IMG/VR virus record: IMGVR_UViG_3300032265_000080
Location: 1-29,297 of that record
From: a virus
Strand: one strand, 5' to 3'
DNA length: 29,297 bases
This document shows, one piece after another, positions 1,504 to 27,687 of the stretch. Below the pieces are notes generated by a model. It was not told the DNA's origin. It saw only the letters and a program-made list of their open reading frames with translations, and did not search any database. Numbering within the stretch: position 1 is the first letter of the stretch; each line of letters opens with the position of its first letter. Position numbers and translations under genes: made by a program.

Positions 1504-1835
1504 TGGCTCATTGGGCAGAGATTGATAAAAATAATATTGTTGTACGTGTAACTGTTGGCTCTAATGAAGACTACGATGAAGGCTACCAATGGCTCATTGA
1601 TAATCTCGGTGGCACTTGGATTAAAACTTCCTACAACGGAAACATCCGTAAAAACTATGCTGGTATTGGTTTTACCTATGATGAAGGACGGGATGCATTT
1701 ATCCCACCAAAGCCTTTTGCTTCTTGGGTACTGGTAGAAGAAACCTGCATTTGGGAAGCACCCACACCAATGCCTACAGACGGTAAGTTTTATGACTGGA
1801 ATGAGCCATCTTTGTCTTGGAAGGAAGTTAAGTGA
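1500..1835 (+). CDS. Fibre-associated small protein, IRKNYAGIG family (copy 1)
   Basis: This 111-residue protein is clearly paralogous to the one at 3811-4152. Both share a core of SYN-x-x-IRKNYAGIG, YDE-x-RD-x-F, P-x-x-F-x-SW, EETC-x-WEAP-x-P and WNE-x-x-LSW. I recognise this family from aquatic phages, where it sits beside fibre genes, but I know no biochemical function for it. Since each copy directly follows a fibre gene with overlapping codons (ATGA here), the likely role is a fibre assembly chaperone or a small fibre-attached protein. An ATG at 1503 is an alternative start one codon later. Many conserved Trp and Tyr residues would also fit a small binding domain. Confidence 0.75.
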   Translation: MMAHWAEIDKNNIVVRVTVGSNEDYDEGYQWLIDNLGGTWIKTSYNGNIRKNYAGIGFTYDEGRDAFIPPKPFASWVLVEETCIWEAPTPMPTDGKFYDWNEPSLSWKEVK

Positions 1836-3811
1836 GCATTCGTCACGCTAGTGAAGAAGATGTAGACGGTAACACAACCGCTATACCTGATGTACCTGAT
1901 GCACCTGCCTCTGCCTCTAGCGCAGATGTGGGTACTAGCCGTGCCTATAACAATGGCGCAGCCACAGTCTCTTTCACAGCAGCCGCTACTGGCGGTACTC
2001 CAACATCGTATACAGCCACAACAACTCCTGGCTCATTTACAGCCACAGGTGCGGGATCGCCCCTAACAGTTACAGGTCTTGCTACAGGAACCACATATTC
2101 CATTGCTGTGACTTCAACTAATGCAACCGCTACCAGCGGTAACTCAGCATCTGCTGGGTCTATCACGGCTACTAGCGTACCTGCTACCCCTTCTGCCCCT
2201 ACTGCTACAGATACCCCATCAGGTCGTGCTTACAACAATGGTCAGGCTTCTGTAGCCTTCACAGCACCAGCAACTGGCGGTAAATCTATCTCTTCTTACA
2301 CAGTAACATCAAGCCCAGGTTCTTTTACTGCTTCTGGTTCTTCTTCTCCTCTTACTGTTACTGGTCTACAGTCAGCAACTGCTTATACCTACACAGTCAC
2401 TGCTACAAATGCTAATGGTACTTCTAGCGCATCTTCTGCATCGTCTGCAGTAACTGCTACAACAGTTCCACAAGCGCCTACTTTAAGCAGCGTCTCTAAT
2501 GGAGGAGAAAAGATTGCCTCAGTAGCGTTCAGTTCAAACGCAACAGGTGGTTCGGCTATCTCAAGTTTTACAGCAACATCATCTTCTGGACGTTCTGCCT
2601 CTGGTAGTTCAAGCCCTCTTTCTATCACAGAAACCGCTGCAGGAACGTACACATACACAGTGACAGCAACAAATGCTAATGGTACCTCTAGTGCTTCTAA
2701 CACTTCAAGTTCTTACGTGTTCAATGTGCCTTCAACACCTACAATTGGAACAGCAACTGCAGGCAATGGAAGTGCATCTATTACATTTACTGGAAGTAGC
2801 ACCAATAACAACTCCAGTATTACTGGCTATACGATGACATCCTCACCAGGAGGATTTACAGGAACAGGGTCATCAAGCCCTATTACCGTTTCAGGACTAT
2901 CTAATGGAACTGCTTATACATTTACAGTCACCGCAACCAATGGTTATGGAACCTCTTCCGCATCTTCAGCCTCTAATTCAGTGACCCCAGTAGCACCTAA
3001 AACATCCTCAGTTAACTACCTTGTCGTTGCGGGAGGTGGTGGAACCTCTCACATCCCAGGTGGTGGTGCGGGAGGCATGCTTACAGGGACCTACTCAGTA
3101 TCAGGAGGTAGCGCTTACACAGTAACTGTTGGAGCAGGGGGTGCGGCGGGCATTAACGCTACATGTGCAACCGCAGCAACGGTTGGGGGCAATAGCGTCT
3201 TTGCTTCTATCACCACATATGGCGGTGGAAAAAGCGGTAATGGTGGTGGGGGCACCAATGGAGGTAGCGGCGCTGGCAGTACCAGCAGTCTTTATAAATA
3301 TACTGGAGTTGTTGGTCAAGGCAACAGTGGCGGAAAAATCCTTTGCTCAACTGGTTCAGGCGGTTATGCTGGCGGTGGTGGCGGTGCTGGCGCAGGCGGT
3401 GCGGACATAAACCAAGGTAGCCCAGGACCTGGCGGTGCGGGTGCGTACTATGCAATCACTGGTGCTTATTATGCTGGCGGAGGCGGTGGTGGTCGTTGTA
3501 ATGGTGGTTGCGGCGGTGTTGGCGGCGGTGGCAGAGCCTATAGCCCTTCTAGAAGCCCTAACTGTTCCTCAAGCGGCGCTGCAAATAGCGGCGGCGGCGC
3601 TGGTGGTGAAAGGCGAGTAGGCGCTGGCGGTGTGGGCGCATGCGGTAGCGGCACCTACGGAAGAAACGGTGGTTCTGGAGTGGTGGTTCTTTCTTACCCA
3701 AGTTCTTACCCAACTCTTACTGCTATCAGCGGTCTTGGTTATTCCTACGCTGATAATGGAACAAACAAAATCTACACATTTACTTCTGGCTCAGGCACGG
3801 TGACAATCTAA
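1832..3811 (+). CDS. Tail fibre/adhesin with four FN3 repeats and glycine-rich tip
   Basis: This 659-residue protein starts at a GTG that overlaps the preceding stop (GTGA). A short N-terminal segment is followed by four fibronectin-III-like modules (about residues 20-117, 118-213, 214-300 and 301-389). A glycine-rich domain then opens with NYLVVAGGGG near residue 395, a typical phage fibre glycine-rich entry strand. The glycine-rich part contains several cysteines, including GRCNGGCGG, unlike the first fibre. The C-terminus ends in a short Ser/Thr/Tyr-rich segment. The modules resemble each other and those of the gene at 1-1503, so the two fibres arose by duplication and module shuffling. 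The role as a host-recognition or surface adhesin is inferred from domain content and position. Confidence 0.8.
   Translation: MSIRHASEEDVDGNTTAIPDVPDAPASASSADVGTSRAYNNGAATVSFTAAATGGTPTSYTATTTPGSFTATGAGSPLTVTGLATGTTYSIAVTSTNATATSGNSASAGSITATSVPATPSAPTATDTPSGRAYNNGQASVAFTAPATGGKSISSYTVTSSPGSFTASGSSSPLTVTGLQSATAYTYTVTATNANGTSSASSASSAVTATTVPQAPTLSSVSNGGEKIASVAFSSNATGGSAISSFTATSSSGRSASGSSSPLSITETAAGTYTYTVTATNANGTSSASNTSSSYVFNVPSTPTIGTATAGNGSASITFTGSSTNNNSSITGYTMTSSPGGFTGTGSSSPITVSGLSNGTAYTFTVTATNGYGTSSASSASNSVTPVAPKTSSVNYLVVAGGGGTSHIPGGGAGGMLTGTYSVSGGSAYTVTVGAGGAAGINATCATAATVGGNSVFASITTYGGGKSGNGGGGTNGGSGAGSTSSLYKYTGVVGQGNSGGKILCSTGSGGYAGGGGGAGAGGADINQGSPGPGGAGAYYAITGAYYAGGGGGGRCNGGCGGVGGGGRAYSPSRSPNCSSSGAANSGGGAGGERRVGAGGVGACGSGTYGRNGGSGVVVLSYPSSYPTLTAISGLGYSYADNGTNKIYTFTSGSGTVTI
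2837..2941 (+). repeat. FN3 segment shared with first fibre gene (copy 2)
   Basis: This is the counterpart of 502-606: 32 of 35 encoded residues are identical. It also sits directly before the glycine-rich domain and is a possible site for recombination between the two fibre genes. Confidence 0.8.
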
Positions 3812-4152
3812 TGGCACATTACGCATTTTTAGATGAAAATAACATTGTTACTGATGTCATTACTGGGTTAGATGAAACAGAACTTATTGAAGGCCTCAGC
3901 CCTGAAGAATGGTATGGAAACTTTCGTGGGCAAAGATGTGTCCGAACTTCGTACAACGCAAGTATTCGTAAGAATTATGCAGGTATCGGAATGGTCTACG
4001 ATGAAAGTCGTGATATTTTTACATGGCCAAAAAAGTTTGATTCGTGGACATTTAACGAGGAAACTTGTTTATGGGAAGCCCCAATACCAAAACCTGTAGA
4101 CGATGAGTGGTATGTCTGGAATGAGTCTACTTTGTCTTGGGAAAAAGGGTAA
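3811..4152 (+). CDS. Fibre-associated small protein, IRKNYAGIG family (copy 2)
   Basis: This 113-residue paralogue of the gene at 1500-1835 starts at an ATG that shares one base with the stop of the second fibre gene (TAATG). Both copies begin MAH and read like a short N-terminal domain (FLDENNIVTDVITG here) joined to the conserved SYN-x-x-IRKNYAGIG and EETC-x-WEAP core. The N-terminal parts differ much more than the core, as expected if that part adapts to its own fibre. A chaperone or fibre-attachment role is inferred from the pairing only. Confidence 0.75.
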   Translation: MAHYAFLDENNIVTDVITGLDETELIEGLSPEEWYGNFRGQRCVRTSYNASIRKNYAGIGMVYDESRDIFTWPKKFDSWTFNEETCLWEAPIPKPVDDEWYVWNESTLSWEKG

Positions 4153-5901: not shown

Positions 5902-6111
5902 GTGGCGTTGTCTAAACTAGAACCAGCGCCACTTGCTTACCCTAATGGAGGTGGAATAGCAGCCATGGCAAGTAAGAAGCCACAGTCTCAACGTCTTGAA
6001 CTTGAGGCTCTAGAAGCCAAGCACAAGGTAGACATCGCTAAACTCAAAGAGAAGCATGCCAAAGCCAATGCTCCAAAGCCTATGAGTACGGGGGCAAAAA
6101 AGAATGGCTAA
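5902..6111 (+). CDS. Small lysine-rich protein with a helical middle
   Basis: The 69-residue reading starts at a GTG directly after the preceding stop. A second start, ATG at 5965, has a better ribosome-binding site (GGAGG at 5947) and would give 48 residues beginning MASKKPQSQRLELEAL; the choice is open. The stretch from about residue 27 to 54, with LELEALEAKHKVDIAKLKEK, should form a charged amphipathic helix or short coiled coil. No family recognised. The last eight bases overlap the next gene at a junction that recurs at the end of that gene. Confidence 0.6.
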   Translation: MALSKLEPAPLAYPNGGGIAAMASKKPQSQRLELEALEAKHKVDIAKLKEKHAKANAPKPMSTGAKKNG

Positions 6112-6114
6112 GAC
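6097..6114 (+). repeat. Gene-junction repeat, copy 1
   Basis: The 18-mer AAAAAGAATGGCTAAGAC recurs exactly at 6278-6295. In both places it encodes the end of one gene (Lys-Lys-Asn-Gly-stop) and the start of the next (Met-Ala-Lys) in another frame. Confidence 0.85.
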
Positions 6115-6292
6115 CATCAAGATCAAGGGCGAAGGCCATACAATTAAGAAGAACAAAAAGGGCGATGTCATTGTTGACCATGCAGGTGACAAGGGCAAGT
6201 ACGACAAGATCAACCTAACCAAGAAGGCTGGCGCCAAGACCATCAAGGCTGGTGTCAAGGCAACTAAAGATTGGCATAAAAAGAATGGCTAA
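6104..6292 (+). CDS. Lysine-rich mini-protein (62 aa)
   Basis: It has 18 lysines in 62 residues: a start of MAKTIKIKGEGHTIKKNKKG, a middle with DVIVDHAGDKGKYDKINLTKK, and a Lys/Ala/Gly-rich end. The N-terminal alternation of basic and hydrophobic residues could form a small beta hairpin. The ATG lies inside the last codons of the upstream gene, with an eight-base overlap, so translation is probably coupled. No family recognised. Overall charge suggests nucleic-acid contact or a virion location, by inference only. Confidence 0.65.
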   Translation: MAKTIKIKGEGHTIKKNKKGDVIVDHAGDKGKYDKINLTKKAGAKTIKAGVKATKDWHKKNG

Positions 6293-6295
6293 GAC
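6278..6295 (+). repeat. Gene-junction repeat, copy 2
   Basis: Exact copy of 6097-6114, again spanning the stop of one mini-gene and the ATG of the next with the same eight-base overlap. Confidence 0.85.
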
Positions 6296-11629: not shown

Positions 11630-14090
11630 CGAGTTAAGTAACATTCAGTCACTTTCGTCTGCCGTTGATTCGTTAACTCAAAAAGTTAATGAACTCTACG
11701 ACGCTGTCTCCAGGGTCAAGGGCGTAGCAGGCGCCACCATCACAGATGTCAAGGGCATGATCAACACCCAAGGCGGACAAATTGGCCTTGGTAATGCAGC
11801 CCGTATGCAGATGCCTACACAGGCTTCGTTCTCTTATATTCCTGGCAATCAACAACAGGGTAACTTCCTAACCAACTCTTTAAGTAACTTCTCATCAGAA
11901 GGAACTGCCATGAGTGGTGGTCGTTCTCGTGGTGATGCTGCTGCTGCAACTGTTGCAGATAACCTGTTTACGGCTGAAGCCAGTGGTGGCGGTGGTGGCG
12001 GTGGCGGAAGTTTATTCACTAAAATTACTGGCGTAAACCCAGTAGGTGCTGGAGAGTACTTTGCACAAGGCATGGCAAAAACGGCTGCTGGTATCGCTGT
12101 TGCCGCATTTGGCGCTATGCCAGATACCAGCCTTACTCTGCAACGTGACATCGGATACTACCAAGCATCACTTACTGCTGGTCGTAACGCTAACCGTGGC
12201 AACATTGAACGTGCCAGCCTTAAAGCATTAGGTAATGGGCTATCTGGTGTGGGTAGCGATGTTATTGCTGCAAACATTCTTACCTCTAGAGGGTATACCG
12301 CAGGAAGCCAAAATTATCTCTCAGCAATGGGTGAAGTTGGTGGAGCATATAAGAACCTAGGAATCGATAATGGAGCAGCAGCCGCCGCTATTGCTGGGCT
12401 ACATTCGGGCGCAACAAGCGCACAAATGTATGGCTTGGGTATCAGCACCTACGACGCTAAAACGGGTAAACAACGTTCTGTTGCCGAGATCTCTAGAGAT
12501 TTAATGAACCGCATGACGGGCGGCCGTAAAGACGTCACCGTTCAAGATATCAACAACTCATTACAGATGGGCTTTTTAGGTGCAAACCTCCAAGCCTCTG
12601 GATTAGATCAAGCAACTCAAGACATGATTGTTGCATCTATGCGCAATCAAGTTCAAGGGGGAAGCGGAGAACTCAACCAAGGCAACACATCATATGGTGG
12701 AGAAAAGAATAAGAACACTGTATTAAACGACACAGGCCGAATGAACGCTTCAACAACCGATGTCATGCAGGCAGCAACGGGTGGAATGGTTGCTGGTTTT
12801 CATGCTGCAACAGCCACTGTAGTTGCTTTAAATAAACTTCTTGAAACAGTAGCACCTATCCTCGGTTCTGTTAAAGGATTTACAAGTGGTGTAATGGGCT
12901 CTAACATCGGTCAAGGCCTTGTAGATGCTGCGCCTATCTTTAAGAGTGCTGCAGATGACTTCTTAACAGCAGTGCATGATGCAACAAGTGGTGGAGGTAC
13001 CTCTGGTTATGGCGCAGCCTTTGGCGTAAAGGGCGGAGCAGCGCCAGTTGCGGCTGCGGCAGGTGCAGCAATCACTGCTGGCTATGGCGCTACCGACGGA
13101 AACATGTGGGCTAGTACCAACGGTAAGCACACAGGCATTGACTATCAGATGCCAATCGGTACCCCTGTAAGCGCACGAATGAGCGGTAAGGTAATACAAG
13201 TTGACCTTAATGCTGATTACGGCAAATCTATTTTAATTGAAAACTCTGAAACAGGACTTCAAACCCTTTATGCACACCTTAGTGAAGAGTCAGTAAAGGT
13301 TGGAGACCTAGTTACTGCAAACCAAATCATCGGTAAGTCAGGTGACACAGGTAATGCTAGTGGTCCACATCTACATTACGAAGTACGCAACGGCAAAAAC
13401 AACCCTGTAGATCCAAAAACAATTAGTTCAGGTGGAATGCTTTCTGCTGCGTTAGGAAGCGGCAATACAATGTCACTTCTTTCCGCATCGACTCCGTTAC
13501 CAGGGGCCGCAGGCAATATTAGCGGCGCTTCCACAACTGGTGGATCACTTCCAGCAAATGCTGATTCAAACCTAGTTTCTATCCTTACTCAAGCAGGATT
13601 TAGTGGTTCAGGGTTGGCTACCGCTTATGCTGTTGCTAAGGCTGAATCAGGTGGTAGAGCCACGGCGTACAACGGAGATACAAAAACTGGAGATCAGTCC
13701 TATGGGCTATTCCAAATCAATATGCTGGGTGCATTAGGGCCCGATCGTCGTAAAAGATTTGGGCTGTCTAGTAACCAAGATCTTCTTGATCCTGCAACAA
13801 ACGCCAAAGTCGCATACACCATGTCGCATGGAGGAACTAATTGGGGACCTTGGTCTACCTACACCAATGGTTCTTACAAACAGTTCCTAGATAAGCCTTC
13901 AACTGGTGGAGGAACCTCTGGCTATGGTGGCGCAGGCCTTGGTGGAAGTACCACTGGTTCTGTAGTCAATAACTTTAATATGCCGATTACATTACAGACT
14001 GGCAATGATGCTGAACTTATGCGTGTTGCCAAAAAGATTCAAACGCTTATTAGTAACACACACGACATTTCTGCGATGGGAGCCTCTTGA
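11622..14090 (+). CDS. Tail tape measure protein with M23 and lytic transglycosylase domains
   Basis: This 822-residue protein starts at GTG with AAGGAG upstream. The N-terminus has a helical segment (residues 5-35), then a poly-Gly linker near 125 and long Ala-rich, mobile-looking helices. A M23-type metallopeptidase follows at about 495-600, with zinc ligands H503 and D507 (HTGIDY) and H585 (HLH), plus H552 (YAHLS). A soluble lytic transglycosylase-type domain lies at about 650-765, with E675 in KAESGG and YGLFQIN after it. Such domains let the tail tip cut peptidoglycan during DNA entry. The size and place between chaperones and hub genes mark it as the tape measure. All catalytic residues are present. 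Confidence 0.92.
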   Translation: MADELSNIQSLSSAVDSLTQKVNELYDAVSRVKGVAGATITDVKGMINTQGGQIGLGNAARMQMPTQASFSYIPGNQQQGNFLTNSLSNFSSEGTAMSGGRSRGDAAAATVADNLFTAEASGGGGGGGGSLFTKITGVNPVGAGEYFAQGMAKTAAGIAVAAFGAMPDTSLTLQRDIGYYQASLTAGRNANRGNIERASLKALGNGLSGVGSDVIAANILTSRGYTAGSQNYLSAMGEVGGAYKNLGIDNGAAAAAIAGLHSGATSAQMYGLGISTYDAKTGKQRSVAEISRDLMNRMTGGRKDVTVQDINNSLQMGFLGANLQASGLDQATQDMIVASMRNQVQGGSGELNQGNTSYGGEKNKNTVLNDTGRMNASTTDVMQAATGGMVAGFHAATATVVALNKLLETVAPILGSVKGFTSGVMGSNIGQGLVDAAPIFKSAADDFLTAVHDATSGGGTSGYGAAFGVKGGAAPVAAAAGAAITAGYGATDGNMWASTNGKHTGIDYQMPIGTPVSARMSGKVIQVDLNADYGKSILIENSETGLQTLYAHLSEESVKVGDLVTANQIIGKSGDTGNASGPHLHYEVRNGKNNPVDPKTISSGGMLSAALGSGNTMSLLSASTPLPGAAGNISGASTTGGSLPANADSNLVSILTQAGFSGSGLATAYAVAKAESGGRATAYNGDTKTGDQSYGLFQINMLGALGPDRRKRFGLSSNQDLLDPATNAKVAYTMSHGGTNWGPWSTYTNGSYKQFLDKPSTGGGTSGYGGAGLGGSTTGSVVNNFNMPITLQTGNDAELMRVAKKIQTLISNTHDISAMGAS
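12990..13012 (+). repeat. Linker repeat flanking the enzyme cassette, copy 1
   Basis: A 23-base segment encoding GGGTSGYG matches 13905-13927 in 21 of 23 bases. The two copies bracket the M23 and transglycosylase domains of the tape measure. Confidence 0.75.
13905..13927 (+). repeat. Linker repeat flanking the enzyme cassette, copy 2
   Basis: Second copy of the GGGTSGYG-coding segment, directly after the transglycosylase domain; see 12990-13012. Confidence 0.75.
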
Positions 14091-15466
14091 TGAGTATACA
14101 GTCTGACTATGAAGCAGCAAGGAAAGCGGCTCAAGCAGCGCTTGATAAGGCTAAAACGACCGCTGAAGCAGCAAATGCTGCTGCTAACAAAGCACGTACA
14201 ATTAAATCATTAAATAATGATATTCAAAAAGATGAGGCTATGTTAGGATACATAAAGGCTCAATTAACAATTTATCAAAACAGACTCTCTGATGCTCAAA
14301 AAAACTACACTATTTATTTTAATGAGATCTATGCAAACGGTCACACACCTACAAGTGCTCAATTAGAAGAACTAACATCTTTAGATAACATCGTAAAAGG
14401 TGCACAAGCACTTGTTAATAACGAAATAGTTATTCAAAAAAAGGTTCAAGCGGATTACGATGCAAAGAAAACTAAGTTAATTGCTTTAGTACCTTCTACG
14501 GTTAAACCATTAGTTGTTGCTGTAAAAAAGAAAACCACACCTCCTCCTGGGGGAACTGGCTCTACTGGTTCGGGTGACACAGTTCAACCAGCCACAAAGT
14601 TTTCCGCAGATTACAAATATAACGCACCAATGATATCTGGTTCATACTTCAACCCAAGTAGTATCCAAGCAAAAGAACTTCAAGCCAACGGGTTCTTTGT
14701 TGATGCAGGAAACTATAGTGATGCTCGTGATGCTTGGTCAGGGCAAAGCGGTCGTGGGACTATTCAAATGGACAAGTACTTTTTGGCAAACTACGACACC
14801 AGTCAAAACTCCAAAGATACTGTTGGCCAGTTTGACCCACAAATGTATGGGTTTAAGTTCCTTTATAATCCAACAACTGTTGGTATGGCTTGGGGTGTTA
14901 TGGCTCAAGCAAGCCCAGACCTTGAAGCAGCGGGACAAGACAAGTTTAACCCAATCATGGCAGGTCTTGCATCTAGCACAGTTGCAGTTAGCCTGCTTTT
15001 GAACCGTATTGAAGATATGAAGGTTTTAACCGCAAAAGGAATAAAGACTACTGCAAGCCCTGTTGGACGCACGGATAGGGAGACAGAAAAACTACTTGCG
15101 CAAGCAGCAGCCACATTCTCCACAGACAACCCTTATGGCACAGCAGTAACTGCAACAGACCTTGTTGACATATACAAACGTGGCACTATGTATGATTTAG
15201 AGTACTTATTTAAAACAGTCAATGGCCCAAACGCTGTGTTCTTATCTTATTTAAACGGCTACACTGCAGACAAAGGGTGGATTCGACCACAGGTTGTAGA
15301 ACTTCATCTAGGACAGTCGCTCCGTTATCGTGGACGTATCACAGACCTTTCAGTAAACCATGCTGTGTTTGATGCCCGAATGGTTCCTGTACTTTCAACG
15401 GTCAATATCACGTTTGCTCGTTTCCCAGAATCTACGTTACCACCAGCAGGAGGGGCTACTCACTAA
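14090..15466 (+). CDS. CIS-tube-like hub protein with long N-terminal coiled coil
   Basis: I chose the ATG at 14090 (TGATG overlap); a TTG at 14087 adds one residue. The 458-residue product has an Ala/Lys-rich coiled coil (residues 5-135), a Pro/Gly linker (about 149-165), then a beta-rich domain. That domain opens with MYGFKFLYNPTTVGMAWGV and closes with a segment pairing VVELHLGQSLRYRGRITDLS with a VPVLSTVNITFARFP strand. This open-close pair is typical of the tube-like N-terminal domain of LysM baseplate proteins in contractile injection systems and phages. The following small gene carries the LysM-like part, so the usual two-domain protein seems split. The coiled coil is an unusual addition. 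Confidence 0.7.
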   Translation: MSIQSDYEAARKAAQAALDKAKTTAEAANAAANKARTIKSLNNDIQKDEAMLGYIKAQLTIYQNRLSDAQKNYTIYFNEIYANGHTPTSAQLEELTSLDNIVKGAQALVNNEIVIQKKVQADYDAKKTKLIALVPSTVKPLVVAVKKKTTPPPGGTGSTGSGDTVQPATKFSADYKYNAPMISGSYFNPSSIQAKELQANGFFVDAGNYSDARDAWSGQSGRGTIQMDKYFLANYDTSQNSKDTVGQFDPQMYGFKFLYNPTTVGMAWGVMAQASPDLEAAGQDKFNPIMAGLASSTVAVSLLLNRIEDMKVLTAKGIKTTASPVGRTDRETEKLLAQAAATFSTDNPYGTAVTATDLVDIYKRGTMYDLEYLFKTVNGPNAVFLSYLNGYTADKGWIRPQVVELHLGQSLRYRGRITDLSVNHAVFDARMVPVLSTVNITFARFPESTLPPAGGATH

Positions 15467-21857: not shown

Positions 21858-22136
21858 ATGGCCAACTTACTTATCTCAATCGTAGTCGCAGGACTCGCAG
21901 TTACTTTCCTCCTTGAACTCCTAGACAAGATCCAACTTGGGATCTTACTCAAGAGCACCGTAAACACCGTGGCATCTATGCCCCTAAGCGTGGGCTGCCT
22001 ATACGCTTTGCAACGACACTGGACAGTAACGATGGTAGTTTCCGTTCCTGCCGCAACCTTTATCGCACTGGCTCTTAACATGTTCATCAACAAGCCAACT
22101 GTCGTACAGCAACAGCGTCTACCTCGAATCTACTAG
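21858..22136 (+). CDS. Small membrane protein, possible holin
   Basis: This 92-residue protein has two clear hydrophobic stretches (about residues 4-21 and 56-77) and a weaker one between (about 34-50). The C-terminus is short and carries Lys and Arg, which fits many holins. It follows the last tail gene and comes before the replication module, a common place for lysis genes, yet no endolysin is recognisable next to it. The only wall hydrolases in the window are in the tape measure. No clear ribosome-binding site; translation may be coupled to the tail gene ten bases upstream. Confidence 0.55.
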   Translation: MANLLISIVVAGLAVTFLLELLDKIQLGILLKSTVNTVASMPLSVGCLYALQRHWTVTMVVSVPAATFIALALNMFINKPTVVQQQRLPRIY

Positions 22137-22143
22137 GAGCATA

Positions 22144-22713
22144 GTGAACAAGATCATTGTTATCTCATACACAAATACAGACGTTTCAATCGGCCTTGAA
22201 GAACTGGTCTATAAACTTCCTGACCATGAACTTGTTATCCCTGTTACTGAGGATGAGGTCTTTGTACGAAGCGCTGTAGGCGTGGCTAAGAAGATGAACC
22301 GCCCCTACGAATTATTTTTCTCAGAATCATCTAGCCTGTTCAATGAACTATCCGTAGGGACAGAGAACACAACCCTATGTTCCTCACCTCTCAAGGAAGT
22401 CTTGAGATACATCACCAGCAACGACACCCTAGCGATCGCATGGGATGACAGCGTAGAGGCACACATGGCTCTCCACTCTGTCGAGGACTTTGGCGTTGAG
22501 GCATGGAACGTTGACGGACCTTTAGAGCCAATCGTTGTAGCCAGTGGTGAGCCAGAGGATCTTTATGAGGAGATGCAGGAAGCCCTCTCCACTTTTATCG
22601 AAGTCTTTGCCGCCTACGTTGCCACCGAAGTCATTGAGACCATCGGCAAGACGGTAGAGCAGACCCTCCTAGAGCACATCCGAGGACACGTCGATCCCTT
22701 CGATGAGGACTAA
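22144..22713 (+). CDS. Unknown protein, alpha/beta appearance (189 aa)
   Basis: The gene starts at GTG behind AGGAG. The first 130 residues alternate strands and helices: KIIVISYT, HELVIPV, EVFVRSAVGVAKKMNRPYEL, EVLRYITSNDTLAIAWDD, EAWNVDG and PIVVAS, which looks like a Rossmann-type fold without a nucleotide-binding loop. The C-terminal 50 residues form an acidic helix (EDLYEEMQEALSTFIEVF). I do not recognise the family. It is three bases from the initiator-like gene, so it may belong to the replication module. Confidence 0.75.
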   Translation: MNKIIVISYTNTDVSIGLEELVYKLPDHELVIPVTEDEVFVRSAVGVAKKMNRPYELFFSESSSLFNELSVGTENTTLCSSPLKEVLRYITSNDTLAIAWDDSVEAHMALHSVEDFGVEAWNVDGPLEPIVVASGEPEDLYEEMQEALSTFIEVFAAYVATEVIETIGKTVEQTLLEHIRGHVDPFDED

Positions 22714-22716
22714 GCC

Positions 22717-23697
22717 GTGGAGATCCCTTCCAAAGCCTATTCCTCCGATTTGACTGATTACCAGTTCCGACTCTTAGCCACCATGTGCCATTTAGCGGGC
22801 GCCAAAGGGGGTTTTAAGGCCTCTGTAGCCGAGTTGAGTACCCAGACTGGCAATCCAAGCGACAGCACTGTCAGAAGGGCCGTCAAAGCCCTCCAAGAAC
22901 AGGGCTTCATTGCCGTGGACAAGACCCGTCGTGCCAACGGCTACCAAGGGATCAACAAGTACACGATCCAGACTGTCACCAGTGCTAGTCTGGAAGAGAT
23001 CCAGACTGTCACCAGTGACCGCACCTCACTTGGTCATGTGACTATTGGTTCACGTAGCAGTATGGTAGATAAGCCATTAGTACCTAATAGCCAAGATAGT
23101 TATAAATTAAAAGATATTGGAAACAAGAATGTTTCCATGAAAGAAGTGCTAATACCTATGAGAAAATACCAGGATGATGGAGACGACCTCGCAGGCTTCG
23201 GACTCGTTGAAGAACGAGACGCACCACAACCAGCCATTCGCAAGTCCGACCCCAAAACCAGAGGTAAGAGACCAGAGCATGAGTGGAGTCCGATGGACGT
23301 TGCTGCTGAGTTTAGTTTCAGAGTTGGTCGCAAGTACCCGCTCCTACCAGGGACTGTCAATGTCAAACAACTCTCAGGCGCCCTTGCAAAGTTCAGAAAA
23401 CAATACGACACCAACGCCCTGATCGAACTTGAACTCCTTCGCCTCTTCATGATGGACGAGCGGAACTTCCGTGACATCGGCGATGAGGCACCGCACCTCT
23501 ACAAACTCTTCCTTGCATCCTTTGGCAAAAAGATGAACCAAGCACGAGAGAACCTTGGCTTGAACAAAGTTACAGCCCCAACAGAAACTGTGGTTAAGAT
23601 GGGCACACTAACTGCCAGCGATGGGACTGTGTTCCAGAACTCACTCTCTGGTCGTGCACAACTAGAACGTCATGAGAAGAGGCTACAGAGCAAGTGA
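22717..23697 (+). CDS. Winged-helix replication initiator-like protein
   Basis: This 326-residue protein has a winged-helix domain in the first 90 residues: DLTDYQFRLLATMCHLAGAK, SVAELSTQTGNPSDSTVRRA and KALQEQGFI followed by a wing, the HTH_36 / phage replication O-type layout. A low-complexity linker (about 83-160) follows, encoded by the repeats and AT-rich DNA described separately. The second half (about 190-280) is helical, with EWSPMDVAAEFSFRVGRKYP, a helicase-loader contact candidate. The GTG start has GATGAGG upstream. The neighbours (AAA+ loader, DnaB, DnaG) fit an initiator. The name is inferred; a transcription regulator is possible but less likely. Confidence 0.7.
   Translation: MEIPSKAYSSDLTDYQFRLLATMCHLAGAKGGFKASVAELSTQTGNPSDSTVRRAVKALQEQGFIAVDKTRRANGYQGINKYTIQTVTSASLEEIQTVTSDRTSLGHVTIGSRSSMVDKPLVPNSQDSYKLKDIGNKNVSMKEVLIPMRKYQDDGDDLAGFGLVEERDAPQPAIRKSDPKTRGKRPEHEWSPMDVAAEFSFRVGRKYPLLPGTVNVKQLSGALAKFRKQYDTNALIELELLRLFMMDERNFRDIGDEAPHLYKLFLASFGKKMNQARENLGLNKVTAPTETVVKMGTLTASDGTVFQNSLSGRAQLERHEKRLQSK
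22965..22984 (+). repeat. 20-nt direct repeat, copy 1 (origin candidate)
   Basis: GATCCAGACTGTCACCAGTG, repeated exactly at 22998-23017. CCAGACT at 22968 also pairs with AGTCTGG at 22987-22993. Confidence 0.85.
22998..23017 (+). repeat. 20-nt direct repeat, copy 2 (origin candidate)
   Basis: Exact second copy, 33 bases from the first. Its CCAGACT (23001-23007) is again the partner of AGTCTGG at 22987-22993, so the three elements form overlapping dyads. Confidence 0.85.
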
Positions 23698-23789
23698 AGA
23701 CAGTAATCGGTTACGCTATGGTTATATTCGGCACGTTAACAGGAACAAACTTAATTCTGGGAGGGATTAAAAAATGGCAAAGAAAGTAA
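23694..23789 (+). CDS. Single-membrane-helix microprotein (31 aa)
   Basis: A GTG that overlaps the initiator-like stop (GTGA) opens a 31-residue frame. Residues 4-25 are hydrophobic (VIGYAMVIFGTLTGTNLILG), flanked by Lys at the N-terminus and KKWQRK at the C-terminus, as in a small membrane protein with its basic tail inside. The frame fills an otherwise empty gap and carries the ribosome-binding site (GGGAGGG) of the next gene, with a 16-base overlap. No family can be named at this length; translation is likely but unproven. Confidence 0.5.
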   Translation: MKTVIGYAMVIFGTLTGTNLILGGIKKWQRK

Positions 23790-24052
23790 CATACAAGTTC
23801 ACCGCAGATCTCACACTCAACTCAGAGCAGGCAGGCGGATGGCTTGCAGTGGTCTCTGTTGTTAATGAAGAGAACATTGCTCAGGCACTCTTTACAACTG
23901 CATGGAAGAACGCATCAGCAGGTAAGCGTTATATCAAGCGCATGGTGCAGGAACTCACACCTCGCAAGAGTGTGAAGTTGGTTGCTGGTGAGGTTCTTGA
24001 TGCAAAGGGCAAGCCAACATCATTTGCTGGCGAACTATCTTTCAAGGCATAG
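23774..24052 (+). CDS. Unknown small protein of the replication module (92 aa)
   Basis: GGGAGGG lies about eight bases before the ATG. The protein looks beta-rich at first (VTYKFTADLTL, GGWLAVVSVVN), has a helix (AGKRYIKRMVQELT near 49-62), then SVKLVAGEVLDAKGKPTSFA and a last strand. No family recognised. It abuts the AAA+ loader gene, with the stop directly before its ATG, so a link to DNA replication is likely. A small single-strand binding or accessory protein is possible but not supported by a motif. Confidence 0.7.
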   Translation: MAKKVTYKFTADLTLNSEQAGGWLAVVSVVNEENIAQALFTTAWKNASAGKRYIKRMVQELTPRKSVKLVAGEVLDAKGKPTSFAGELSFKA

Positions 24053-24775
24053 ATGTACGACATCAATACGCTTTCGTCTTTGAAGCGACACTGGTTACTT
24101 CGCACTGCGAATATCCCTCGTCGCTTCTTAGGCCTTGAGCCATCGGATGTTGCTGAGAGAGCAGGAGAGTTTCCACCTGCTGTCGCTAACTGGATTGACG
24201 ATGCCCTCAGTGGTCAAGTCATCAAGGGCATAGGCAACATCGGAGTCAACGGTGTTGGTCTTCTCTTTGATGGCGGTCCAGGAATCGGTAAAACAACTCA
24301 CGCAGTCATTGCTGCTATGGAGTTTGTTCGTCGTCTTCCAGACGATGATGCAGAGGCTGCAAAGGTCTTAGGGCTTAACGTCACCGAGTATGGTTTGGGC
24401 TGTCGTCCGATCTACTACATGACCTACCCAGAGTTTTTGTCTAGAAAGAAGTCGACCTTCGACGCAGACCCCGAAGACAAACGCAATATGGTTTATGAGT
24501 TGGATGGACTTCACGGGCGGTCGAAGTTCGACTGGCTTAATGTTCGCATACTGGTCATCGATGATCTTGGTAAAGAGTACGGATCTAAATATGATGATAC
24601 ATCGTTTGATGAGATCCTGCGATTGCGTTATGACAAGGGGCTACCCACCATCGTCACGACTAATGTTAGGTTAGAAAACTGGGAAGCACAGTACAAAGAA
24701 GCGATGGCAAGTTTCGCCCACGAAGCATTCGTCCGAGTACCTATCATTGGTTCTGACCTACGAGGTGCGCAATGA
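24053..24775 (+). CDS. AAA+ ATPase, DnaC-like helicase loader
   Basis: This 240-residue protein has Walker A GGPGIGKT at residues 74-81, Walker B ILVIDD at 166-171, and sensor-1 TIVTTN ending at N204, followed by a C-terminal arginine (RVPIIGSDLRG), a probable arginine finger. The layout matches DnaC/IstB-type loaders. The neighbouring DnaB-like helicase at 25505 is the likely client, and the initiator-like gene lies just upstream. N-terminal residues 1-40 may be the helicase-contact part. It ends in an ATGA overlap with the SWIM gene. Confidence 0.85.
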   Translation: MYDINTLSSLKRHWLLRTANIPRRFLGLEPSDVAERAGEFPPAVANWIDDALSGQVIKGIGNIGVNGVGLLFDGGPGIGKTTHAVIAAMEFVRRLPDDDAEAAKVLGLNVTEYGLGCRPIYYMTYPEFLSRKKSTFDADPEDKRNMVYELDGLHGRSKFDWLNVRILVIDDLGKEYGSKYDDTSFDEILRLRYDKGLPTIVTTNVRLENWEAQYKEAMASFAHEAFVRVPIIGSDLRGAQ

Positions 24776-25080
24776 AAGGAATGAGCATGGAATCTCCTTG
24801 GAGAACCGTCCAGTTGTTTATCTCCTCTCAATACGCTGGTATTTTTGAGGTAGAGGTCGATACTGAAACACACGACATCCGCTGCACCTGTCCTGTATGG
24901 AATAAGAATGGCTCTTGTAAGCACACTTCTTTTGTAAACCAGAAGATGAAGTACAACAACGGTCACTACTCCATCAAGATCCCAGAGGATATCCCTGAAG
25001 ACTTAGTGCAGGAAGCAATAGATGACCCTGCTGCTTTCCGTAACCTCATCATTAAATACAATAAAGTAGAAGTACTGTGA
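24772..25080 (+). CDS. SWIM-type zinc-finger protein
   Basis: This 102-residue protein carries C38-x-C40 and C49-x-H51 (IRCTCPVW then SCKHTSFV), the C-x-C-x(n)-C-x-H pattern of SWIM zinc fingers, which bind DNA or protein. The first half is a beta hairpin leading to the finger, and the C-terminal half is acidic (IPEDIPEDLVQEAIDDPAAF). Start ATG at 24772 overlaps the loader stop; the stop overlaps the next GTG. Its place between loader and helicase suggests a role in replication or recombination. SWIM domains are also found in SNF2-type helicases, and this phage encodes one at the end of the module. Confidence 0.75.
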   Translation: MKGMSMESPWRTVQLFISSQYAGIFEVEVDTETHDIRCTCPVWNKNGSCKHTSFVNQKMKYNNGHYSIKIPEDIPEDLVQEAIDDPAAFRNLIIKYNKVEVL

Positions 25081-25493
25081 AAGGCGGGGACATTTCTAAT
25101 GTCTCCTCTCCCCAAGTCATCTGCGTAACAGATGTTGTTATCGGATTAAAGACCGAAGAAGAGAAGAAGTTTCTGTCTCGTCGTTCCACCGTTCTTATTG
25201 GCGATGTTGACATGCTCAATGCAAACAAGTTGTGGGTACTCTCCAACAACTACGGCATCTCTTTAGAGTTGGCTGGCTTTGCATCAGAGGGTTGGTCAGA
25301 AGAGTTGCTCGATAAGACGTTCGAGAAACTTGAGCGTCGAGTAGTTAACCCATTTAACTACTGGCAGTTGTATGAGGATGCCCAAGAGTTGGTTGGGACT
25401 CTTCCATATCGTGCTAATCTAAAGGGAGTGATCGATGTCCCAGGCCGTGTAGCCATGTATGGATCAGCAGGAGTAGAACTAAACAATTTGTAA
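25077..25493 (+). CDS. Unknown replication-module protein (138 aa)
   Basis: Starts at GTG in a GTGA overlap with the SWIM gene. Visible features are STVLIGDVDMLNANKLWVLS near 37-56, then EELLDKTFEKLERRVVNPFN near 75-94 and VIDVPGRVAMYGSAGVEL at the end. No family recognised, no metal motif and no Walker motif. Order and length suggest a single compact alpha/beta domain. The position between SWIM protein and helicase gives the only clue to function. Confidence 0.75.
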   Translation: MKGGDISNVSSPQVICVTDVVIGLKTEEEKKFLSRRSTVLIGDVDMLNANKLWVLSNNYGISLELAGFASEGWSEELLDKTFEKLERRVVNPFNYWQLYEDAQELVGTLPYRANLKGVIDVPGRVAMYGSAGVELNNL

Positions 25494-25504: not shown

Positions 25505-26755
25505 GTGGCGGCAGATAACGAACATCGCTTAGTAAGCAAGATCATTCGTGACAGGGACTTAATCCCTGCAATGGAACGTGGTGTCAAAGATGCTTGGTTT
25601 TTAGACGAGGATAACCGCAAGGTCTGGTCATTTGTACGCCAGCACTACGGTCAGTACAGTGAGGTTCCCACAGGTACCACTGTCAAAGATCACTACCCTA
25701 ACTACAAGATTCTTGATGTAGAAGACTCTATTGATTATTTGCTTGACACAATGGTCGACTTCCGTCGTCGACTCCTCACACGTCAAGGTTTAGAAGATGC
25801 CGTAGAGCAGTTACAAGAGAACGATCATGAAGCCGCACTTCTCTCGATGGAGAAGACGATTTCTGTTGTCAATGAACAGGGCATCCAAGGCACTCATGAG
25901 GTTGACCTATCTAAGAACACAGAGCAACGCTATGCAGACTACCAAGCACTCCAGAACTCTACCTTCCTAGGCATTCCTACTGGCTTTGAGAAGATCGATG
26001 AAGCAACAGCAGGTCTACAAGGCGGTCAGTTAATCACTGTCATCGCTCCTCCTAAAACTGGTAAGTCTCAGATCGCATTACAGATTGCAATCAATGTTCA
26101 CCGCTTAGGTAAGACTCCTATGTTCCAGTCCTTTGAGATGAACAACCACGAACAACAACAGCGTCACGATGCAATGCGTGCTCACGTATCACACGGAAGA
26201 TTACGCCGTGGAAAGTTACTGAAGGAAGAAGAAGACCGCTATATCGACATGCTTAACACCATGGAGAAAGAACATCCCTTCCATCTAGTAGATGCCGTAA
26301 ACGGAATCACAGTCTCAGCACTAGCAGCAAAGATTGAACAGACAAAGCCAGACATCGTATTTGTAGATGGTGTGTACCTGATGTTGGATGAGAACACTGG
26401 CGAGATGAACACGCCACAAGCGATTACTAATATCACTCGTGCTCTTAAGCGATTGTCTCAGCGCATTGATAAGCCTATTGTCATTACCACACAGACTTTG
26501 CTATGGAAGATGCGTGCTGGAAAAGTTACCGCAGACTCTATCGGTTACTCATCCTCGTTCTTCCAGGACTCAGATGTTATCTTGGGACTAGAGCCAGTAG
26601 AAGAAGACGAAGAGATTCGTTTGCTTAAGATTGTTCAGTCCCGTAACTGTCCTCCAAGTGAGACTGCCATTACATGGCGTTGGGAGACAGGCTGCTTCCA
26701 CGATGAGTCAGAGATGACCAAGTGCAAGTATTGTTCGACTTGGATGGTGCGATGA
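25505..26755 (+). CDS. dnaB: DnaB-like replicative helicase
   Basis: This 416-residue protein starts at GTG with AGGGGG upstream. It has a DnaB N-terminal-type helical part (1-130), then GIPTGFEKIDEATAGLQGGQ near 156-175, the entry to the RecA-like core. Walker A is APPKTGKS at 181-188, and Walker B IVFVD at 284-288. A C-terminal R-x-x-x-x-x (QSRNCPPSETAITWRW) fits the usual core end. It ends in a C-x-x-C (KCKYC), unusual for DnaB. Role: unwinding at the fork, loaded by the AAA+ protein upstream and working with the primase that overlaps its stop (ATGA). Confidence 0.88.
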   Translation: MAADNEHRLVSKIIRDRDLIPAMERGVKDAWFLDEDNRKVWSFVRQHYGQYSEVPTGTTVKDHYPNYKILDVEDSIDYLLDTMVDFRRRLLTRQGLEDAVEQLQENDHEAALLSMEKTISVVNEQGIQGTHEVDLSKNTEQRYADYQALQNSTFLGIPTGFEKIDEATAGLQGGQLITVIAPPKTGKSQIALQIAINVHRLGKTPMFQSFEMNNHEQQQRHDAMRAHVSHGRLRRGKLLKEEEDRYIDMLNTMEKEHPFHLVDAVNGITVSALAAKIEQTKPDIVFVDGVYLMLDENTGEMNTPQAITNITRALKRLSQRIDKPIVITTQTLLWKMRAGKVTADSIGYSSSFFQDSDVILGLEPVEEDEEIRLLKIVQSRNCPPSETAITWRWETGCFHDESEMTKCKYCSTWMVR

Positions 26756-27687
26756 TTGATGTCGAAAAGGTTCTTCTTAATCTAGACATTCAACTCGTTG
26801 CACAACGGGGAGAAGAGGTGCAGGGCTACTGCCCAATGCACAAAGCCAGAACTGGAAAAGAAGATAACAATCCTTCTTGGTGGATCAACGGCGAGACAGG
26901 TGCGCACATCTGTTTCTCCTGTGGTTACAAGGGAAATGTTTACACCCTTGTCTGCGACCTCAAGGGCATCGATTACTTTGATGCTAGAGATTACGTCAAC
27001 CAGCAAGCCGATGTTCCCCTTGACGCTTTGATGCGTCGCATTCAAGAACTGCCCCACTACATTGCTCCATCAGAAGATGCGATCGGTATGAGTGAGGCAC
27101 GCCTTGCTGTCTTTACCACGCCCCCTATTAAGAACTTAAAGGGCAGGGCGCTTACACCTGCAGCAGCAGAGCACCATGGAGTGCTTTGGGACCCTAAGAC
27201 CCTTGTATGGATACTTCCTATCCGTGACCCAGAGACCTTTGAACTATGGGGCTGGCAGGAGAAGGGTTCTACTGGTCGCTTCTTTAAGAACCAGCCAGCA
27301 GGAATTAAGAAGTCAAAGACAGTCTTCGGCGTAGAGAAGATGGCAACAGACATCCTTGTTGTTGTTGAGTCACCTCTTGATGTTGTGCGTCTTGCAGTGG
27401 TCGGAGTTGAAGGCGCTATCGCAACATGCGGAGCAATCATTAGCGAAGATCAAGCAAAGATTATGCGCAGAGCAGAGAAGGTAATTGCGGCATTTGATAA
27501 CGATGACGCTGGTAAGAAAGCCTCAGAACAATTGCGTGCTTACGCTCGCAAATACGGCATCGATCTTTCCTTCTTCAACTACGATGGGATCAACGCAAAA
27601 GACCCAGGAGATATGACGATGGAGCAAATCCATCAGGGCATTGAGCATGCAAAGAGTGCCGTATTAGGGAAGGCTGCCTACCTATGA
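26752..27687 (+). CDS. dnaG: DnaG-like primase with zinc finger and TOPRIM domain
   Basis: I chose ATG 26752 (ATGA overlap with the helicase stop, 311 residues); a GTG at 26722 adds ten residues. C27-x2-H30 and C54-x2-C57 (CPMH and CFSC) form a CHCC zinc finger as in DnaG. The TOPRIM domain has E206 in VVVESPLD and the D249-x-D251 pair in AFDNDDAG. The protein is shorter than full bacterial DnaG because it lacks most of the C-terminal helicase-binding part. It lays primers for lagging-strand synthesis beside the DnaB-like helicase. ATGA overlap with the next gene. Confidence 0.88.
   Translation: MIDVEKVLLNLDIQLVAQRGEEVQGYCPMHKARTGKEDNNPSWWINGETGAHICFSCGYKGNVYTLVCDLKGIDYFDARDYVNQQADVPLDALMRRIQELPHYIAPSEDAIGMSEARLAVFTTPPIKNLKGRALTPAAAEHHGVLWDPKTLVWILPIRDPETFELWGWQEKGSTGRFFKNQPAGIKKSKTVFGVEKMATDILVVVESPLDVVRLAVVGVEGAIATCGAIISEDQAKIMRRAEKVIAAFDNDDAGKKASEQLRAYARKYGIDLSFFNYDGINAKDPGDMTMEQIHQGIEHAKSAVLGKAAYL

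Follow-up and report, generated by a model that had tools for sequence, protein, structure and literature searches.

A putative replication origin within the initiator gene of an uncultivated phage, with repeats that differ among its relatives

In lambda and the Stx phages, gene O harbours the iterons and the AT-rich tract in its middle part (PMC7466680, PMC6022878), and these reports bear out the comparison with lambda on which a preliminary description of the DNA studied here was built. P22 and Salmonella phage L carry their own, differing repeats inside gene 18 (PMC8022706), and oriL of Bacillus phage SPP1 is located in gene 38 (PMC6316719). In the staphylococcal RepA_N plasmid pSK41, the Rep boxes are found in the middle of rep and the origin codes for a linker of the protein; pPR9 represents a natural swap of the N-terminal domain together with the origin, its N-terminal domain belonging to pfam13730 (PMC5703833).

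We analysed a linear virus record of 29,297 bases (hereafter the window), in which the main genes are all on the plus strand. The segment 22965-23137 is very probably a theta-type replication origin of this phage, positioned within the coding sequence of its own initiator. A lambda-like origin had been proposed at this place in the preliminary description; as far as sequence can show, that reading is supported, and the refutation tests that could be computed came out favourably.

The initiator gene and its neighbours

The genes relevant to the proposed origin are as follows.

22717..23697, plus strand: initiator gene, GTG start, 326 amino acids (open reading frame list)
22717..22974, plus strand: winged-helix DNA-binding domain, residues 1-86 (HTH_36 match, AlphaFold2 model)
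22852..22899, plus strand: turn and predicted recognition helix (49-61), residues 46-61 (mutual information, AlphaFold2)
24053..24775, plus strand: DnaC/IstB-like helicase loader (IstB_IS21 8.7e-7, Pfam; phrog_50 3.7e-22)
25505..26755, plus strand: DnaB-like replicative helicase (DnaB_C 5.6e-28; PHROG)
26722..27687, plus strand: DnaG-like primase with zinc ribbon and Toprim (Zn_ribbon_DnaG 3.8e-10, Toprim_2 3e-13; PHROG)

Employing AlphaFold2 with 48 relatives, we obtained a model of the initiator in which residues 1-86 are folded as a winged helix, residues 87-164 form a disordered linker (mostly pLDDT <50) and the C-terminal part is helical, with a domain at about 182-326. The initiator matched HTH_36 (PF13730) in Pfam with an E value of 6.6e-6 and 26.3 bits versus the curated cut-off of 25, and PHROG profiles of replication initiation or O-like proteins matched its N-terminal (winged-helix) part only (E 1e-5). 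Structural matches of the winged helix included the N-terminal domains of plasmid initiators (4pql, 4pt7 and 5kbj; Z 8.8-10.1), tied with ordinary winged helices. In the same kind of comparison, the C-terminal model showed no confident match to any solved fold, and a sequence search of the initiator against solved structures gave nothing meaningful. Pfam matches up to E 1 included neither Phage_rep_O (PF04492), which was also found in 0 of 10 long relatives, nor RepA_N (PF06970). Because the protein falls into neither family by Pfam and its C-terminal domain lacks a confident structural match, we claim no family membership for it.

Loader, helicase and primase genes were said to follow directly. 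All three are indeed downstream, but "directly" is slightly loose, since small open reading frames intervene between initiator and loader (23774-24052) and between loader and helicase (24772-25493). The gene just before the initiator (22144-22713) showed no family match; it is placed, after tail genes and before the loader, like the 324-374-aa genes of the BRock group of Streptomyces phages. Near the start of the window, two long genes (178-1503 and 1832-3811) contain repeated fibronectin-like Ser/Thr-rich segments and Gly-rich tails, and each has behind it one of two similar genes of about 110 amino acids (1500-1835 and 3811-4152). The long genes with their small partners form a duplicated pair, possibly with a receptor-binding role. 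A tail sheath match assigns the phage to a contractile-tail lineage. Among the matches listed, Streptomyces phages supply the isolate proteins closest to the helicase and sheath, which weakly hints at an actinobacterial host.

Repeats, core, AT-rich tract and hairpin

The segment within the initiator gene contains the following elements.

22965..22984, plus strand: iteron copy 1, GATCCAGACTGTCACCAGTG (exact repeat)
22987..22993, plus strand: inverted half-site AGTCTGG, complementary to the CCAGACT of either copy (sequence)
22998..23017, plus strand: iteron copy 2, identical to copy 1
23005..23130, plus strand: block of collapsed synonymous variation, read as an origin core under DNA-level selection (codon comparison)
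23071..23088, no strand assigned: invariant 18-nt core AAG[C/T]CATTAGTACCTAAT, around ATTAGTACCTAAT (40 sequences tabulated)
23096..23117, no strand assigned: AT-rich tract holding the near-invariant TATAAATTAAAAGAT, proposed DNA unwinding element (stability calculation)
23118..23137, no strand assigned: hairpin TGGAAACA-AGAA-TGTTTCCA with an 8-bp stem (folding; hairpin of differing sequence at this place in relatives)

Iterons, core, AT-rich tract and hairpin are all in DNA coding for the disordered stretch of the initiator, except that iteron 1 starts earlier, in the winged helix. The repeats had been assigned to the linker behind that domain; their position there holds, but the word is slightly loose for copy 1, which starts where the final predicted strand of the winged helix (residues 80-84) is encoded. 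The two exact 20-nt direct repeats are as described: GATCCAGACTGTCACCAGTG occurs twice only, at 22965-22984 and 22998-23017, with a spacing of 33 nt (11 codons). The proposed pairing is likewise present, with CCAGACT at 22968 and 23001 and AGTCTGG between them at 22987-22993, in the order direct, inverted, direct. In the whole 29.3 kb, this pair is the sole direct repeat of at least 19 nt within 200 nt; the runner-up has 18 nt and a spacing of 181. A search for a second origin revealed no further perfect iteron in the window. With two full iterons and one inverted half-site, compared with four iterons in lambda, the number of repeats counts against an origin. Elsewhere, an 18-nt exact repeat, AAAAAGAATGGCTAAGAC, at 6097-6114 and 6278-6295 lies where the end of one small basic gene overlaps the start of the next, which suggests a duplicated gene junction.

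The AT-rich stretch (20 of 22 bases) was located at 23096-23117; by nearest-neighbour energies, no other 22-mer anywhere in the window is as unstable. A comparable tract at about 14197-14230 is the least stable one when lengths of 40 and 60 are scanned. The latter tract is within a 459-aa gene (14087-15466), and no repeats were noted alongside it. The hairpin reported to follow the AT-rich stretch was recovered at 23118-23137, with a folding energy as DNA of -7.2 kcal/mol versus a shuffled mean of -1.5; folded as single-stranded DNA, either strand gave z values of -5 to -6. No Rfam match up to E 1 was obtained in 22100-24100, and a known structured RNA was rejected on this basis. A search of the segment for a sigma-70-type promoter found none. 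No DnaA box was present near the site; one was found in the window, no more than expected by chance.

The cumulative GC skew of the window goes down until about 23.5 kb and then up. When the skew was checked as the preliminary description had proposed, the window and 7 of 9 long relatives (8 of 10 records) had a local minimum no more than 1 kb from the site, and the skew step at the core was positive in 10 of 10 records. The step is moderate: comparable steps occur elsewhere in several of the same records, and two of the ten are without a local minimum near the core. In addition, two of the ten records (G003 and G011) look nearly identical around the site. Because of the comparable steps and the near-identical pair, we take the skew as support, not proof.

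Constraint and exchange among relatives

A viral contig scan identified 163 relatives and a profile scan 277, of which 80 were kept from each; extra relatives were added by a DNA pattern scan for the core and AT-rich tract. Metagenomic relatives of the initiator number over 100, and those aligned share 63-94% protein identity with the window initiator. No relative was found among isolate phage records by tblastn, or in genome contigs scanned for prophage or host copies.

Alignment of related phages, one of the checks proposed earlier, showed that repeats are kept at the same position of the gene even though neither their sequence nor the residues they encode are constant. We designated the iteron types A to E, assigning them by regular expressions and then by hand. 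Type A consists of AATTACC(GCAC) repeats in two to four copies, type B of short, gapped GGAC-N6-GTCC palindromes and type C of GCCCA...TGGGC arms; type D is the CCAGACT type of the window, present in only three records, and type E is GTCCACCC/GGGTGGAC. Rarer types beyond these were also seen. Of 56 representatives, 71% had a longest direct or inverted repeat of 8 nt or more, versus 3% of control segments from the same genes. Type B repeats were mostly non-significant singly (p 0.1-0.4 for 10 of 11), which counts against the origin. Between the iterons and the core (23032-23054), many relatives possess a second 5-3-5 palindrome, TGACT-ATA-AGTCA, or variants such as TGGCT-ATA-AGCCA; the window instead carries TGACTATTGGTTCA with 9 additional nt.

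To quantify synonymous variation, differences between codons for the same residue were compared in 40 sequences of <95% identity. The observed/expected ratio was 0.04-0.21 in 9-codon windows at 23005-23130, as opposed to 0.63 for the gene overall and 0.7-0.9 for most of it. This sharp block of synonymous conservation, a test beyond those of the preliminary description, supports the reading as a probable origin. An overlapping gene was considered as the source of the constraint and rejected: in 56 of 56, stops break up all five other frames. Outside the block, synonymous variation was also lowered, to a lesser degree than within it, in codons 22-45 (22780-22851; about 0.33-0.45) and around codons 145-156 (23149-23184; about 0.2).

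Within the block, AAG[C/T]CATTAGTACCTAAT was identical in 40 of 40 sequences save at the single C/T position, codon third positions included. It comprises a 13-bp, 5-3-5 palindrome (ATTAG-TAC-CTAAT, 23076-23088) that is present in all 56 representatives. With up to 2 mismatches allowed, each of 15 records 51-100 kb in length contained the core exactly once, and its distance to the AT motif was constant (29 nt) in nine examples spanning all five types. In 55 of 56 representatives, a perfect stem of 6 bp or more starts 1-5 nt past the AT motif, versus 6.6% of control slots. The stems themselves vary: there are at least 18 different ones among the representatives and further ones, such as GTGGCGC...GCGCCAC, in relatives from the pattern scan, and they differ even between the window (TGGAAACA) and its 94%-identical relative L001 (GAATCC). 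A shape that stays constant while its sequence changes argues for a folded strand, not a site for a sequence-specific protein.

The iteron type follows the winged helix. Changes of type numbered 14 on the tree of the 3' (C-terminal) part of the gene versus 4 on the winged-helix tree, the latter being the minimum possible for five types. Mutual information with iteron type averaged 0.23 for winged-helix residues and 0.07 for the C-terminal part. It peaked at residues 48, 69, 49, 79, 47, 46, 66 and 54, most of which fall in the wing or in the turn and first residues of the predicted recognition helix. All 28 type A sequences have K at residue 46, where K is absent from the common residues of the other types. 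Pairs of different type share about 22-51% nucleotide identity in the 20-codon iteron block and mostly 70-100% downstream. Linkage adds to the concordance of winged helix and iterons, since the two are neighbours; the C-terminal part is also near the iterons, on the other side, yet it is discordant with iteron type. Apparently, the DNA-reading part of the starter protein and the repeats it should read are swapped as one unit among relatives. This co-inheritance, again beyond the tests suggested earlier, adds support to the proposed origin.

Proposed function, alternatives and relation to known systems

The anatomy of the segment, its selection at the DNA level, the co-inheritance of winged helix and iterons, its uniqueness and the skew step were observed in this analysis. 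From these we infer that the protein binds the repeats, that the DNA is unwound and that replication starts here. The winged-helix domain, probably as dimers, would bind the iterons of CCAGACT type in their direct, inverted, direct arrangement, and the complex would exert strain on the adjoining AT-rich tract at 23096-23117 and cause it to open. The opened strands would then be passed by the initiator to the DnaC-like loader, DnaB-like helicase and DnaG-like primase of the phage. The origin-coded stretch of the protein would act as a flexible linker, so that its residues would be free to change along with the DNA. Two additional parts of the origin would be the core around ATTAGTACCTAAT, which does not vary, and the hairpin next to the opened tract, whose sequence is free, the hairpin most likely acting as a folded single strand, either as a landing site for loader or primase or as a barrier to re-closing.

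Self-regulation is common in winged-helix proteins, and the repeats might instead be an operator at which the protein, bound inside its own gene, represses its own transcription, with the origin elsewhere. Co-inheritance of winged helix and repeats fits any DNA-binding role, an operator included. Such an operator, however, leaves unexplained why an invariant core, the least stable tract and a conserved hairpin stand in fixed order beside the repeats, and it accounts for neither the skew step nor the loader, helicase and primase genes downstream; we consider it improbable. Autoregulation could exist on top of origin function.

The constraint might also act at the RNA level, on mRNA structure or on a minus-strand terminator of antisense transcription (a hairpin, then T-rich sequence), as retention of the hairpin through sequence change and its terminator-like score on the minus strand would suggest. 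However, the T run begins about 6 nt beyond the stem rather than directly, terminator-like sites are no more numerous than in shuffles, Rfam gave no match, and neither the skew nor the change of the repeats with the recognition helix of the protein is explained; an RNA-level cause is very improbable. We give still less credence to a mere duplication at the protein level (33 nt being 11 codons) in a fast-evolving linker, with no function of the DNA. The repeat period is in frame and the linker is predicted to be disordered, but relatives have unrelated repeats at the same place, some of them inverted DNA repeats without protein repetition, and synonymous variation reaches its lowest level in the gene over the 120 nt that follow.

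Beyond the origin itself, we tentatively propose, as a possibility we hold to be somewhat short of probable, that a large family of uncultivated phages possesses an intragenic origin of three separable modules. In the first, winged helix and iterons would form an exchangeable cassette that comes in at least five specificities. In the second, the invariant palindromic core would provide, together with the AT-rich tract, a common joint and the place of opening. The third would be a hairpin, kept in shape and free in sequence, serving as a single-strand loading or priming signal. If this is true, cassette swapping would allow phages to change replication specificity, for example to escape from origin-decoy interference or satellites. 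The family is also a natural data set: within one gene, a DNA-binding domain and its targets co-vary while the rest of the gene remains much the same. Recognition by winged helices and the exchange of origin specificity thereby become directly testable. One motif could locate the origins of many uncultivated phages from sequence.

Systems of this kind are already known, the same layout having been published for lambda O, P22 gp18 (and phage L), SPP1 gp38 and pSK41 Rep. As far as the literature searched shows, there is no counterpart of this family of phages, of the number of iteron types exchangeable within one gene family, of the invariant core or of the shape-conserved hairpin. Among the matches listed, the best isolate matches of helicase and tail sheath are in Streptomyces phages BRock, LuckySocke, GiJojo and pSt2308. 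The order of tail genes, loader, helicase and primase is similar in this group, but the gene at the corresponding place is without an HTH match, such repeats or an AT-rich tract; that of LuckySocke, the only one compared with the initiator, showed no detectable relation.

As in lambda, P22 and phage L (PMC7466680, PMC6022878, PMC8022706), the repeats are in the middle of the initiator gene, relatives carry different iterons, an AT-rich tract is present and helicase-loading genes are downstream. Unlike lambda O, the protein is not Phage_rep_O by Pfam; its gene has fewer full iterons, an invariant 13-bp palindromic core and a freely changing hairpin after the AT-rich tract, and the phage is of a contractile-tail lineage. 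The likeness to SPP1 gp38 and oriL consists of an origin in the initiator gene, direct repeats with an AT-rich unwinding element, and a phage-coded loader and DnaB-like helicase (PMC6316719). SPP1 has a second origin, oriR, whereas here each record has one core and the window no further perfect iteron. Unlike pSK41 Rep, the initiator has no RepA_N (PF06970) match, its C-terminal domain has no confident match to a solved fold, and it belongs to a phage, not a plasmid. It resembles that protein in its predicted winged-helix N-terminal domain, mid-gene repeats, origin-coded linker and helical C-terminal domain; the N-terminal domain of pSK41 Rep binds the Rep boxes (PMC5703833), and binding by the window initiator is predicted. 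In pPR9, as here, the N-terminal domain is in pfam13730, the family matched by the window initiator.
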